Shown: piece by piece, positions 10,866-15,071 of the stretch
Numbering within the stretch: the stretch's first letter is position 1
How the letters are laid out: every line of letters begins with the position of its first letter
DNA from: Pedobacter sp. PF22-3
Lineage (GTDB): Bacteria > Bacteroidota > Bacteroidia > Sphingobacteriales > Sphingobacteriaceae
Assembly (NCBI RefSeq): GCF_026239555.1
Contig: NZ_JAPIVP010000016.1
Coordinates: 62,001 to 126,000, forward strand
Length of the DNA: 64,000 bases
Direction of reading: 5' to 3'
Made by a program: the position numbers and the translations under genes
Notes under the pieces: model-generated
What the model was told of the DNA's origin: nothing
Database searches by the model: none
What the model saw: the letters and a program-made list of their open reading frames with translations, nothing else

Positions 10866-12197
10866 CTACAATAAAGGCAATATTTTTTCCATAACCGTCA
10901 GGCCTTCGTCAATATGCTTTTGCTCAATACAGAGTGCCGGACGGAAACGTATCGTTTTTTCACCACAACCCAAAAACATCACATTGTTTTCCAGTCCTTT
11001 GCCAATAAATGCATTGCGCATTTCTTTTGTCGGGAAATCGAAAGAACATAGCAAACCTTTTCCACGCACGTTTGTCATTTGGTCAAATTTATGCGATAAA
11101 TTCTCAAGTTGATCTTTTAAGTATAGTCCTACTTTTGATGCATTTTCGCATAGCTGATCTTCCTCTATGATCTGTAAAATCTGAGAAGAACGTACCATAT
11201 CAACCAAATTGCCTCCCCATGTGGAATTAATTCGGCTGGGCACTTTAAATACATTGCTTTCAATTTCATCAACCTTATTGCCAACAAGGATTCCACAAAC
11301 CTGCATTTTTTTACCAAAAGCGATAATATCTGGTTGGGCTTTTTCACTAAAATGTTGGTGGCACCAGAATTTACCTGTTAATCCTACGCCAGTTTGCACT
11401 TCGTCATAAATCAAAAACGCATCATTTTCATCGGCAAGGGTTTTAAGCTGAATCAAAAACTCTTCCCGTAAGTGGTTATCTCCCCCTTCTGATTGGATGG
11501 GTTCTATAATGATGGCGCAGATCTCATCTTTATTCTCTGCAAAGGCTTTTTTGATCTGTGCAAGCGAAGCCTCTTCAGTTGCAACGGCATGACTTAAATT
11601 GCTTCCGGAAAGTGGGAATCTAACTTCCGGAACGGCTACCCTTGGCCAATCGAACTTGGCAAACCATTTTGTTTTATCGGGTAGGGTATTGGTTAAACTA
11701 AGTGTGTAACCTGTACGGCCATGAAAAGCCCTTTCGAAGTGTAAAACTTTAAAACCTTTTTCTTCAGTATATCCTTTTGCAAAGTTTTTCTGAACCTTCC
11801 AGTCCATGGCAACCTTAATGGCATTTTCTACTGCTAAGCCTCCACCTGCAATAAAAAAAGCGTGTGGCAGATAATCGGGAATACCAATTTTAGAAAATGT
11901 TTCCACGAATTGTGCATATTGCTGGGTATAAACATCAGAGTTTGATGGATTGGATAAAGCGGCGAGTAAAAGATTCTTTTTAAAAGCTTCGTCATTAACC
12001 ATTTTTGGGTGGTTGTAACCTAAAGGAACAGAAGCAAAACAAGTGAAAAAATCGAGTAAAGTCCTATTGTATTTCGAGTCGTAAATATAAGCACCATTAC
12101 TTTTTTCCATATCATAGGTCAGGTCGAAACCATCGGCCAGAATGTGCTTACTTAAAGATTCGTTAACGCGATCTGCAGGTACTGTTAATTGATACAT
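10866..12197 (-). CDS. lat: L-lysine 6-transaminase
   Basis: A 443-residue class-III PLP aminotransferase of the lysine epsilon-aminotransferase group, transferring the side-chain amino group of lysine to 2-oxoglutarate (giving allysine, which cyclises to piperideine-6-carboxylate). The family-typical start TVPADRVNESLSKHILADG, the IIIEPIQSEGGDNHLR segment, LIYDEVQTGVG and the PLP-lysine region AFGKKMQ (near residue 292) are visible. I choose ATG 12197 over a TTG at 12221 because a -7 box overlaps the TTG (12219-12226). It probably feeds lysine catabolism. Downstream is a small membrane protein gene. Confidence 0.9.
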   Translation of the reverse strand: MYQLTVPADRVNESLSKHILADGFDLTYDMEKSNGAYIYDSKYNRTLLDFFTCFASVPLGYNHPKMVNDEAFKKNLLLAALSNPSNSDVYTQQYAQFVETFSKIGIPDYLPHAFFIAGGGLAVENAIKVAMDWKVQKNFAKGYTEEKGFKVLHFERAFHGRTGYTLSLTNTLPDKTKWFAKFDWPRVAVPEVRFPLSGSNLSHAVATEEASLAQIKKAFAENKDEICAIIIEPIQSEGGDNHLREEFLIQLKTLADENDAFLIYDEVQTGVGLTGKFWCHQHFSEKAQPDIIAFGKKMQVCGILVGNKVDEIESNVFKVPSRINSTWGGNLVDMVRSSQILQIIEEDQLCENASKVGLYLKDQLENLSHKFDQMTNVRGKGLLCSFDFPTKEMRNAFIGKGLENNVMFLGCGEKTIRFRPALCIEQKHIDEGLTVMEKILPLL

Positions 12198-12218
12198 AAA
12201 CTTGGTTTTGGTATAATC

Positions 12219-12248
12219 CAAATTTAGTTAAATGTGCCCAAAATCAAA
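12219..12248 (-). promoter_or_regulatory. Bacteroidota-type promoter of lat
   Basis: On the minus strand TTTG (12248-12245), an 18-nt spacer and TAAATTTG (12226-12219) fit the -33/-7 consensus. The predicted transcript starts at about 12213-12215, roughly 17 nt upstream of the ATG at 12197. Confidence 0.7.
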
Positions 12249-12278
12249 ATTTAAGCACTTTTTCTGCACTTTGTGTAA

Positions 12279-12357
12279 AAAATAGGTTTAAACAGTTTAA
12301 AGTATGATTATAGACAAAAACCTATTTTGGACTTCACGAATGTGGAAAACTTTTTTA
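12279..12357. repeat. Conserved element A upstream of the chorismate mutase gene
   Basis: An 11-bp perfect stem, AAAATAGGTTT (12279-12289) with AAACCTATTTT (12318-12328), encloses GTTTAAA and TATGATTA. It is followed by a small TTCAC/GTGGAA hairpin (12333-12347) and CTTTTTTA. From 12295 to 12357 it aligns without gaps to 13034-13096, with conserved blocks GTTTAAA, TATGATTA, TTCAC, GTGGAAA and CTTTTTTA. The stem sequences differ between copies. Both strands remain possible. The rest of the gap 12198-12590 has small hairpins at 12487-12500 and 12523-12544. Confidence 0.6.
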
Positions 12358-12590
12358 ATCGAACGCTTATTAAAAATACCTTGTTTTGATAAAATAATTA
12401 ATCCAATACTTTATTTTCCAATTACTACTGAAACAGTTTCTGTTGACATTTAGTAGATATATATACAGCAAATTGGCTCCTTATCACTTACGTCAGTAAG
12501 ATTAAAACTCACAGCTTCAATGATGCCAATTTAATTAATGGCAATAATGCCCGAGCAAGTCCGTTTTTAAAACAAAAACCCCATTTGGAA

Positions 12591-12956
12591 ATGAAAAAAA
12601 GATGCTATTTCATACTGATCATGATCGTTGCTGCATATAGCTCAGCTAGCGCACAAGCAATACCTGCTAAACCTCCTACAGTTCTTGAAACCAACAGAAA
12701 GATGATTGACTCGTTGGATAAGAAAATTATTGAAACCATTGCTCTTAGGGAAAAACTGGTTAAGGAGATCGGAGCATATAAGGCCAAGAATAAAATCCCG
12801 GCGCTACAGACTTCCCGCTTTCATGAGGTACTGAATAATGCTGTTAAAGCTGGAATGCAGCAGGGTTTATCTGAAGAATTTGTTACCGAGCTCATGAATG
12901 CGATCCACCGCGAAAGTCTTAGGATCGAAAGCGAAGCCACAAACCATCCAAATTAA
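12591..12956 (+). CDS. Exported AroQ-class chorismate mutase
   Basis: A 121-residue protein with a signal peptide (about 1-21, ending SASAQ) and one AroQ helical domain that aligns without gaps to E. coli chorismate mutase. Taking that enzyme's numbering, Arg11, Arg28, Lys39, Arg51 and Ser84 are present (here R36, R53, K64, R76 and S109). Gln88 is Glu (E113), as in the yeast enzyme. Asp48 is Gln and Glu52 is Phe (F77). It would convert chorismate to prephenate outside the cytoplasm, where no pathway is obvious. I prefer ATG 12591 (MKKRCYF) to 12585. A strong terminator follows, and copies of one conserved element flank the gene. Confidence 0.85.
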   Translation: MKKRCYFILIMIVAAYSSASAQAIPAKPPTVLETNRKMIDSLDKKIIETIALREKLVKEIGAYKAKNKIPALQTSRFHEVLNNAVKAGMQQGLSEEFVTELMNAIHRESLRIESEATNHPN

Positions 12957-12978
12957 CTTTAAATCAAAAAAACATTGC

Positions 12979-13016
12979 AAAAACCACATCTAAACATATG
13001 TTTAAATGTGGTTTTT
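12979..13016 (+). terminator. Intrinsic terminator of the chorismate mutase gene
   Basis: AAAACCACAT...TAAACATATGTTTA...ATGTGGTTTTT forms a long, nearly perfect hairpin followed by T-rich sequence, 23 nt after the stop. Confidence 0.85.
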
Positions 13017-13027
13017 AATTTTTGGAC

Positions 13028-13096
13028 AAAGCTGTTTAAAATATGATTAACGAGAAGTCAGCTTTTAAACTTTCACAATTGTGGAAAGCTTTTTTA
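13028..13096. repeat. Conserved element B downstream of the chorismate mutase gene
   Basis: A second copy of the 12279-12357 element. A 7-bp stem, AAAGCTG (13028-13034) with CAGCTTT (13059-13065), is followed by TTCAC/GTGGAAA (13072-13087) and CTTTTTTA (13089-13096). The spacing between the conserved blocks equals that in element A, but the stem bases differ. Confidence 0.6.
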
Positions 13097-13160
13097 TTTA
13101 ATGCTTTTTTCCTTTAGCTGACAACTTGTTGATTCAATAATACACCTTGACAAAAATTGG

Positions 13161-13691
13161 TTACAATTTGTCGAGAAAATCCAGGTATAGCGGAACACTT
13201 TTTTCAATCCATTCTTCTGACGGGTGATGATCAATTCCATAGTATGCAAAAAATGGTCTATAATCTGCTTTAATGTATTCAAAGGAAAGCTCGAAAGGAC
13301 GTGTAAGTTCTTTTAGCGGATATTTATAAATACCGGAAGAACTGAGTTCTGCCTGATCTACACCTAATGAAATGGCCAGTGCAATTTTCTTTCGGGCAAC
13401 TTTATAGCCGCTTTTGCTTCCATATGCCCAGCCATGTGTAAGTACTTCATCTAGCCACTTTTTGAAAAAGGCGGGGCAGTTAAACCAATAATAAGGAAAT
13501 TGAAAAACTATCTTTTCATATTCTTCGATTAATTTTTGTTCGGCAGACACATTAATTTTTCCGTCAGGATAAACCTTATGCAATTGATGCACATGGAATT
13601 TATCAGGGAATTTACCAAGTTCTTCGATCCATCTTTTGTTAACAACGGAGTTTTGGATATCGGGATGAATGACGATGATGAGTGTTTTCAT
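13161..13691 (-). CDS. NAD(P)H-dependent flavodoxin-fold oxidoreductase (MdaB/YwrO type)
   Basis: A 176-residue flavodoxin-like quinone reductase. It starts TLIIVIHPD, has the FQFPYYWFNCPAFFKKWLDE segment that binds flavin and forms the active site in this family, and a GSKSGY motif. ATG 13691 (MKTLIIV) is preferred over an upstream start at 13757, because the extra residues are not family-like and overlap the promoter zone. It is divergent from an HxlR-type regulator 98 bp away, the classic arrangement in which the regulator controls the oxidoreductase in response to quinones or electrophiles. Confidence 0.9.
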   Translation of the reverse strand: MKTLIIVIHPDIQNSVVNKRWIEELGKFPDKFHVHQLHKVYPDGKINVSAEQKLIEEYEKIVFQFPYYWFNCPAFFKKWLDEVLTHGWAYGSKSGYKVARKKIALAISLGVDQAELSSSGIYKYPLKELTRPFELSFEYIKADYRPFFAYYGIDHHPSEEWIEKSVPLYLDFLDKL

Positions 13692-13789
13692 TTCAGTAGT
13701 CTTAAAATTATCAGGTACAAAAATAAGATAGCTTGCCTGCAATATGTATATTAGCAACCAATTGTATGGTACTATAAAAAATGTAAGTA

Positions 13790-14146
13790 ATGTCTAAAAT
13801 CAAGGAAACATCGACCAATTTTGCTAATAAACAGGCACTAGCGGAGGAATGTCCAGAAGTTTATGCGGCCAATATTATAGGAGGGCAGTGGGCATTGGTA
13901 ATCTGCTCCTGGTTAATTAATGGCAAACTCAGATTTGGCGAGCTCAAAAAATTGTTGCCTAATATCACCGAACGTATGTTGACACTTCAGCTCCGAAAAC
14001 TTGAAGAAAACAAAATCATTAAACGTACTATTTATGCTGAAGTACCGCCACGTGTAGAATACGAACTAACACCAATAGGCTATGAACTTAAAGCTGTTAT
14101 AAAACAACTGGAAAGTTGGGGCGATAAACATAAAGCACTAAATTAA
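13790..14146 (+). CDS. HxlR-family transcriptional regulator
   Basis: A 118-residue winged-helix regulator. The HxlR pattern is clear: a Cys near the N-terminus (AEECPEVYA), IGGQWALVICSWL, LRFGELKKLLPNITERMLTLQLRKLEE (recognition helix) and VEYELTPIGYEL. Members sense reactive electrophiles or oxidants through the N-terminal Cys. It is divergently arranged with the flavodoxin-fold oxidoreductase at 13161-13691 and likely represses it. The intergenic region presumably contains the operator, but I could not define one. Confidence 0.92.
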   Translation: MSKIKETSTNFANKQALAEECPEVYAANIIGGQWALVICSWLINGKLRFGELKKLLPNITERMLTLQLRKLEENKIIKRTIYAEVPPRVEYELTPIGYELKAVIKQLESWGDKHKALN

Positions 14147-14201
14147 GCAAGAAATAACTGCCTGTTTTAAAGTAAGTTTTCTTGTTAGCAAAAAGAACGC
14201 T

Positions 14202-15071
14202 TTAAAACTTATCTTTCATGCCAAAAAGGCCCATTAGGCCTCCTGTATGGATAGCCAATATGCTTTCATCTTTATCAATAATTCCTTTTTGTGCCAAATC
14301 CTGGATGGCATAAAACATTTTTGCTGTATAAACAGGATCTAAAAGCAGTCCGGTTTTTGCAGTAAAGGTTTTGATAAAGCTAATCAGTTCAGGAGTGGTT
14401 TTGGCATAGCCACCAAAATGATAATCAAGATGAAGTTTGAGATGTTCGGATACAGGTGTATACTGCGCAATTTCATCTTGAATAAAAGAAGCCCCTTTTA
14501 ATACAGGTATGATATGCAACTTCGTATTTATACGGCGTTGCTGGATCCCGCTTAACAAACCTGCCGCTGTGGTTCCTGTTCCGGCAGCACAAAAAATGTG
14601 GTCGTATTGCGCTGTTAATTCGTCGATTATTTCTGCACAACCGATTGTTGCTTCAGTAGATGCCCCGCCTTCATTTATAAAATAAGCCTGTTCATCATGT
14701 GCAAAATGCTCTTCAAACAATTGAAGTTTATCCCGATAACTTTCACGGTCTGTAAAAATGAGTTTCATTCCAAATAAACTGCACAGCAATAACATCTCAT
14801 TTTTTACTTCTTCGCCTCTCACAAAAGCAGTGGATTTCAGTCCCGAGCGTGATGCAGCAGCGGCTGTAGCAACCAGATGATTGGAATAAGCACCACCAAA
14901 TGTAACCAGATGCGTTTTGTTTTCATCCTTTGCCTTAGCTAAAATATATTTGAGTTTGCGCCATTTATTGCCAGAAATGTAGGGGTCAATAAGATCATCT
15001 CTTTTAACAAAGAGGTTCTTGAAAGGTGCAAGTTCTACTTTCTGTACCGGGCTATATATTTCTTCGAACAC
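14202..15071 (-). CDS. PLP-dependent 1-aminocyclopropane-1-carboxylate deaminase / D-cysteine desulfhydrase family
   Basis: A 289-residue fold-type II PLP enzyme. The PLP-lysine segment SGNKWRKLKY (about residues 34-43), TFGGAYSNH (cofactor and substrate contact) and the phosphate-binding AAGTGTTAAG are all present. In this short bacterial subgroup D-cysteine desulfhydrase activity is more usual than ACC deaminase, but the sequence does not decide. It is a single gene ending about 50 bp from the HxlR gene end, and its upstream side has the hairpin at 15083-15111. Confidence 0.88.
   Translation of the reverse strand: MFEEIYSPVQKVELAPFKNLFVKRDDLIDPYISGNKWRKLKYILAKAKDENKTHLVTFGGAYSNHLVATAAAASRSGLKSTAFVRGEEVKNEMLLLCSLFGMKLIFTDRESYRDKLQLFEEHFAHDEQAYFINEGGASTEATIGCAEIIDELTAQYDHIFCAAGTGTTAAGLLSGIQQRRINTKLHIIPVLKGASFIQDEIAQYTPVSEHLKLHLDYHFGGYAKTTPELISFIKTFTAKTGLLLDPVYTAKMFYAIQDLAQKGIIDKDESILAIHTGGLMGLFGMKDKF

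Follow-up and report, generated by a model that had tools for sequence, protein, structure and literature searches.

The region upstream of an L-lysine 6-transaminase gene (lat) contains a 37-bp imperfect palindrome that is likely to serve as the operator of a regulator of amino-acid catabolism. In the window, that is, the whole 64-kb stretch of DNA analysed, two similar elements lie on either side of a chorismate mutase gene: A at 12279-12357 and B, first placed at 13028-13096 and bounded at 13031..13096 in our follow-up. Comparison with related genomes makes it likely, with some room for doubt, that A is the regulatory DNA of lat with an operator for a catabolic regulator, and that B is a decaying duplicate that arose from insertion of the chorismate mutase gene. 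A folded RNA is an unlikely reading of the repeated element, whose core looks instead like a DNA switch site that relatives of Pedobacter have before genes of lysine and glutamate breakdown. The features of the region are as follows.

10866..12197, minus strand: lat, L-lysine 6-transaminase (NCBIfam TIGR03251 equivalog, 629 bits against a cut-off of 521; Pfam Aminotran_3).
12219..12226, minus strand: putative lat -7 element TAAATTTG (TAnnTTTG), from alignment A3 (see below).
12234..12258: inverted repeat GTGCC..GCAC between the operator and lat, minus-strand terminator-like in relatives.
12245..12248, minus strand: putative lat -33 element TTTG, from the sequence and alignment A3.
12276..12312: 37-bp imperfect palindrome, proposed operator, centre at 12294, with a TTTAAACAGTTTAAA core.
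12341..12356: second box TGTGGAAAACTTTTTT, at a distance of 46 bp from where the right half of the operator starts.
12591..12956, plus strand: chorismate mutase type II gene, inserted cargo (Pfam CM_2, E 1.3e-18).
12979..13016: hairpin after the chorismate mutase gene, likely terminator, with 19-nt arms, 95% complementary, and no loop bases.
13031..13096: element B, probable decayed copy of the part of A that runs rightwards from the palindrome centre; the two flanking genes converge on it.
14202..15071, minus strand: gene for a PLP-dependent enzyme of the ACC deaminase / D-cysteine desulfhydrase superfamily (Pfam PALP; no NCBIfam cut-off reached), the ancestral neighbour.

The blocks common to A and B are in register and lie where the original prediction had placed them. 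An ungapped alignment of A 12295-12357 with B 13034-13096 has 44 identities in 63 positions. Elsewhere in the window, on either strand, the highest count is 33, and none of 20,000 shuffles of B attained 44 (maximum 33). The plus-strand chorismate mutase gene and a minus-strand flavodoxin-fold gene have their 3' ends on either side of B. Given this position between convergent gene ends, we rejected B as a promoter region. The gene between the elements had been described as an exported chorismate mutase; the Pfam match confirms a type II enzyme, and the export signal is a judgement by eye.

Element A lies upstream of the lat start codon at 12197. The lat gene is present in 57 of 60 genomes of the same genus, and its upstream region was read in 50 of these 57. 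A 20-position palindrome core with at most four mismatches was found in 46 of the 50; it is weaker in G018 and G060 and absent in G042 and G044. These four genomes, with weak or absent sites, are outside both of our alignments: A2, with 44 rows over the whole element, from which G061 and G071 were dropped because their flanks could not be aligned, and A3, with 45 rows, from which G061 was dropped for the same reason. In A2 the palindrome is nearly invariant, and approximately 25 bases to its right vary freely. At compact loci (G041, G046, G017, G013, G049, G067, G002 and G005), A fills the gap between lat and the PLP-enzyme gene on the same strand. Together with the presence of the chorismate mutase gene in only 3 of 50 genomes, the compact loci indicate that A is ancestral lat upstream sequence and was not carried in by the mutase gene.

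The palindrome is centred on TTTAAACnGTTTAAA, 97 bp upstream of the lat start codon and approximately 82 bp ahead of the inferred lat transcription start near 12212. Every one of the 44 rows of A2 keeps the two core TTTAAA half-sites without change, and G012, G079 and G124 have near-perfect or perfect dyads. A-tract flanks border the 37-bp dyad, which stands upstream of the putative promoter. Within the family, at least five further genera also have the palindrome upstream of lat. As a dyad-symmetric site conserved upstream of orthologous genes, it has the properties of an operator, and we propose that its core would be bound by a dimeric or larger transcription factor of amino-acid catabolism in the Sphingobacteriaceae. 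At L135:892-979 (G012) and L075:1317-1404 (G079), the site is now a near-perfect dyad because one half has changed so as to complement the other, the outcome that correction of a quasi-palindrome would give.

Conservation of the second box, TGTGGAAAACTTTTTT, extends through the close clade, at a spacing of 45-46 bp, and in part through the genus, and the sequence between it and the palindrome varies freely. In the other genera that were read, no such box could be made out next to the palindrome. In G071 (L162, around 888-980), the usual combination of palindrome and TGTGGAAAAC box upstream of lat is replaced by two tandem palindromes 39 bp apart.

Between the operator and lat, the minus strand carries TTTG-18-TAAATTTG, which fits the Bacteroidota promoter consensus and which we take to be the lat promoter. 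TAnnTTTG is almost invariant across the 45 rows of A3 and can also be read in G042 and G044, both without the palindrome. The inverted repeat at 12234..12258 is paired in 69.9% of cells, compared with 68.1% after shuffling, a level that 14 of 500 shuffles reached, and no excess of two-sided changes was found for it. This terminator-like repeat overlaps the lat -33 region, and its letters vary (GTGCC/GGCAC, GCCCC/GGGGC).

The palindrome recurs at other catabolic genes. A sequence-only model of A (R1) yielded further matches in relatives that comprise the palindrome only. Twenty of these extra matches were read in their context, 15 of them upstream of a glutamate dehydrogenase-type gene (gdh; assigned by Pfam ELFV_dehydrog for the one gene tested), one, in G118, upstream of an acyl-CoA dehydrogenase gene, and four (L201, L209, L212, L213) near unrelated genes. 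With a weight matrix built from the 44 lat sites only, 17 of 27 usable gdh upstream regions score at least 19; three of the 30 gdh loci gave no usable upstream region, and a later scan covered all 30. Across a background of 798,560 positions from two relatives, three positions reach 15, all of them in lat regions. The gdh site of G000 is a weaker variant that scores 16.5 with a 4-nt spacer, one base longer. Altogether, 18 of the 30 gdh loci reach 15 (17 in the longer-spacer scan, plus L241), and 12 stay below 15 despite the longer spacer. One gdh gene, at G064:C1:4966488-4967504, has an internal TAG and matches in part only; it may be a pseudogene or reflect a sequencing error.

A palindrome model (R2), run on 20 genomes at a threshold of E<=1e-4, found 32 distinct places, all of which precede lat (17, in 16 genomes), gdh (13), an acyl-CoA dehydrogenase gene (one, in G118) or an ornithine transaminase gene (one, in G086). 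Because many of these places are training sites, the result demonstrates consistency and is not an independent test. Weaker matches were found at an ornithine transaminase gene in G140 (TIGR01885) and at an arginine deiminase-family gene in G086 (Pfam ADI). Nine of the ten best PDB relatives of the G118 acyl-CoA dehydrogenase are named glutaryl-CoA dehydrogenase, an enzyme that acts in the breakdown of lysine, of which glutarate is a product.

An exact scan for the pattern TAnGTTTAAACnGTTTAAACnTA in 84,980 species, with one genome each, returned 15 stretches. Ten lie directly before lat, and another probably does (L338, whose sequence stops short of the gene and has the same preceding genes as the lat loci L330 and L179). 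Two lie before gdh, and one, in Mucilaginibacter, precedes a 93% identical relative of the G118 acyl-CoA dehydrogenase; the remaining stretch is cyanobacterial (Pleurocapsa) and unrelated. Thus 14 of 15 are in Bacteroidota, with Pedobacter, Pseudopedobacter, Daejeonella and Mucilaginibacter among the named hosts, and 13 stand directly before catabolic genes of one theme. The site therefore occurs, above background, at several functionally linked genes, as the sites of a regulon do. So rare a site, mostly tied to one catabolic theme, makes a nitrogen-control regulon of the whole family directly testable.

Other matches of the palindrome models were rejected as chance-like or off theme: the four R1 loci near unrelated genes (L201, L212, L213, L209) and L284, L285, L287, L288, L289, L290, L291, L292, L294, L295, L296, L298 and L299. 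L209 and L284 have the same pair of neighbour genes. A palindrome of TTTAAA half-sites, mostly with a 4-nt spacer, is found near position 1500 in L284, L290, L291 and L295, and also in L209. The L284 type occupies a divergent spacer between pseudouridine synthase-like and lytic-transglycosylase-like genes (named by eye) in several genomes of two genera and is outside the catabolic theme.

The most widespread targets of the proposed regulator would be lysine 6-transaminase and glutamate dehydrogenase, joined in some lineages by glutaryl-CoA dehydrogenase, ornithine transaminase and perhaps the arginine deiminase-family enzyme. From the sequences we infer protein binding at the palindrome, the direction of its effect and the identity of the regulator. 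The distance of the operator centre from the inferred lat start would suit an activator or an Lrp-type architectural regulator, presumably one responsive to an amino acid. Placed before amino-acid catabolic genes, a 37-bp dyad flanked by A-tracts fits a regulator of the Lrp/AsnC type, and the leading, as yet unproven, candidate is an Lrp/AsnC orthologue, encoded in G000 at G000:C26:13919-14143. Each of the ten genomes tested has two to seven Lrp/AsnC genes, and one orthologue group is represented in nine of the ten (29 of 42 Lrp matches compared). The candidate was not seen in G044, an 80% complete draft in which the lat palindrome is absent and gdh scores only 2.0; in G042, the candidate gene is present and the lat palindrome absent. 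Owing to the incompleteness of the G044 draft and the mismatch in G042, this co-occurrence is a lead only. Lrp/AsnC genes commonly, although not obligatorily, have an autoregulatory site. None of the 30 Lrp loci scanned had the palindrome (best score 10.0, against a background maximum of 12.4 outside lat regions), so we rejected an autoregulated Lrp gene, and nothing ties the regulator to the palindrome in that way. Regulators of the LysR, GntR or other families are possible. To our knowledge, few operators have been mapped in Bacteroidota outside Bacteroides, and we found no description of the 37-bp TTTAAACnGTTTAAA-centred motif in open-licence papers.

Element A is also the left edge of an insertion hotspot, in which cargo precedes the ancestral neighbour in many genomes; in compact genomes, this PLP-enzyme gene lies directly beyond A. 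Across the hotspot (12357-15071) and its orthologous loci (L144-L163), the cargo ranges from none to more than 15 kb and consists of ordinary genes (transporter, response regulator, lipase, MsrA, RND pump, SDR, HxlR). The original prediction had asked whether the gene between the elements varies among strains; of 50 loci, only G000, G001 and G074 have chorismate mutase at this place, and the cargo differs. The mutase was rejected as a partner of the element, since the shared blocks are absent beside a similar gene in eight other genomes of the genus (L020-L027, 1.5 kb on each side, up to two or three mismatches).

Decayed copies of the right part of A lie at the far end of the cargo in three lineages. 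In G000 and G001, the relic follows the chorismate mutase gene. In G072 it is 12.6 kb away, beyond a 12.5-kb block, and in G064 it comes after an SDR-HxlR pair, and what lies beyond it is the sequence found immediately after A in G066. In G000/G001 and in G072, the palindrome centre is where the copy begins; the G064 relic also retains some of the left half. In G074, chorismate mutase is present and B is missing. The B of G000 has decayed differently from its G001 orthologue, as expected of a redundant copy. We infer that the right half of A was duplicated when the chorismate mutase gene entered the gap that separates A from the ancestral neighbour, and that this duplicate, B, would now be redundant and decaying. 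In our reading, B is thus what recombination at A left behind and not half of a functional pair. The relics illustrate how a regulatory region can be duplicated by gene insertions at a fixed hotspot and later discarded, and a reader with a single genome can mistake the resulting pattern for a structured element.

A bolder extension, possible although we incline against it, is that one Lrp-type protein governs a hitherto unrecognised regulon of amino-acid catabolism, centred on lysine, throughout the Sphingobacteriaceae, and that the long AT-rich operator at lat is in addition prone to recombination. New genes would then have entered beside lat repeatedly, by breakage or strand switching at the dyad centre, with half-operator scars of the B type as the outcome.

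It is improbable that a site-specific recombination system uses A and B as its attachment sites and moves the intervening genes as cassettes. The three separate insertions beside A, each with a decaying second copy at its far end that in two of the three begins at the palindrome centre, are in keeping with such a system. However, A is single-copy beside lat in compact, cargo-free loci, the palindrome recurs at gdh and other genes, and a Pfam scan of 18 cargo proteins detected no integrase or transposase, and hence neither support for the paired recombination site first suggested nor the cognate recombinase with an array that marks integrons and attachment sites. The relics are explained more simply by homologous or illegitimate recombination. 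The notion of a mobile cassette boundary was half right: A does bound inserted genes, as the hotspot edge and the relics in three lineages indicate.

Still less likely is that A and B encode a structured RNA, small or cis-acting, with stems that covary around conserved loops. By eye, the stems named in the original prediction are perfect complements in both window copies, many relatives have a promoter-like TTTTTG-18-TAGGTTTA sequence ahead of the plus-strand block, and a T run closes the conserved part. In the orthologues, however, the stems are not kept. RNAalifold returned an empty structure on both strands for 44 orthologues of A. In the named stem, 65.2% of cells are paired, compared with 64.5 +/- 0.8% after shuffling; covariation is not in excess, and columns 16 and 55, a central pair, do not pair in 33 of 44 rows. 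The window has no Rfam match at gathering score, the middle of A differs freely among clades, and other genera retain only the palindrome. A regulatory RNA thus loses its footing, and so do stems under selection, a claim against which the prediction had itself set neutral change in the stems, the pattern that the 44-row alignment shows. Selection as such is upheld, and on the sequence evidence it is the DNA palindrome, not an RNA fold, on which it acts. Covariation above shuffles was also looked for in the palindrome as a helix, and none was found, as expected of a DNA dyad with fixed half-sites. A short plus-strand peptide starting from the ATG in TATGATTATAGAC was rejected, as it meets stops or a changed frame in G007, G010, G003 and G008 (by eye).

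A role of A as a replication-origin or terminus element is hardly credible: TTTTCCACA on the minus strand resembles a DnaA box, but the strand-corrected GC skew of G075 (20 sampled stretches) changes sign near 2.2-2.5 and 5.4-5.7 Mb, and lat, at 3.65 Mb, lies inside one arm and not at a switch; the sampled skew of G071 has no clear pattern.

The reading of A as lat regulatory DNA has parallels in known systems. Lrp/AsnC feast-famine regulons control amino-acid catabolic genes through AT-rich palindromic sites. The proposed targets and sites resemble these in both respects; the difference is that Lrp binding here is putative and that the 37-bp TTTAAACnGTTTAAA-centred site is a motif we did not find in print. 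A close analogy is mycobacterial LrpA, an amino-acid-responsive regulator that lies upstream of the lysine aminotransferase gene lat (Rv3290c) and is reported to bind there directly (PMC4726150). In mycobacteria the regulator gene adjoins lat, whereas no Lrp gene was seen beside lat here, and the palindrome here also precedes gdh and other genes. A likeness of function, glutarate breakdown, links our system to GcdR and CsiR, which are reported to regulate this pathway in Pseudomonas putida and belong to the LysR and GntR families, in a different phylum (PMC6667623).
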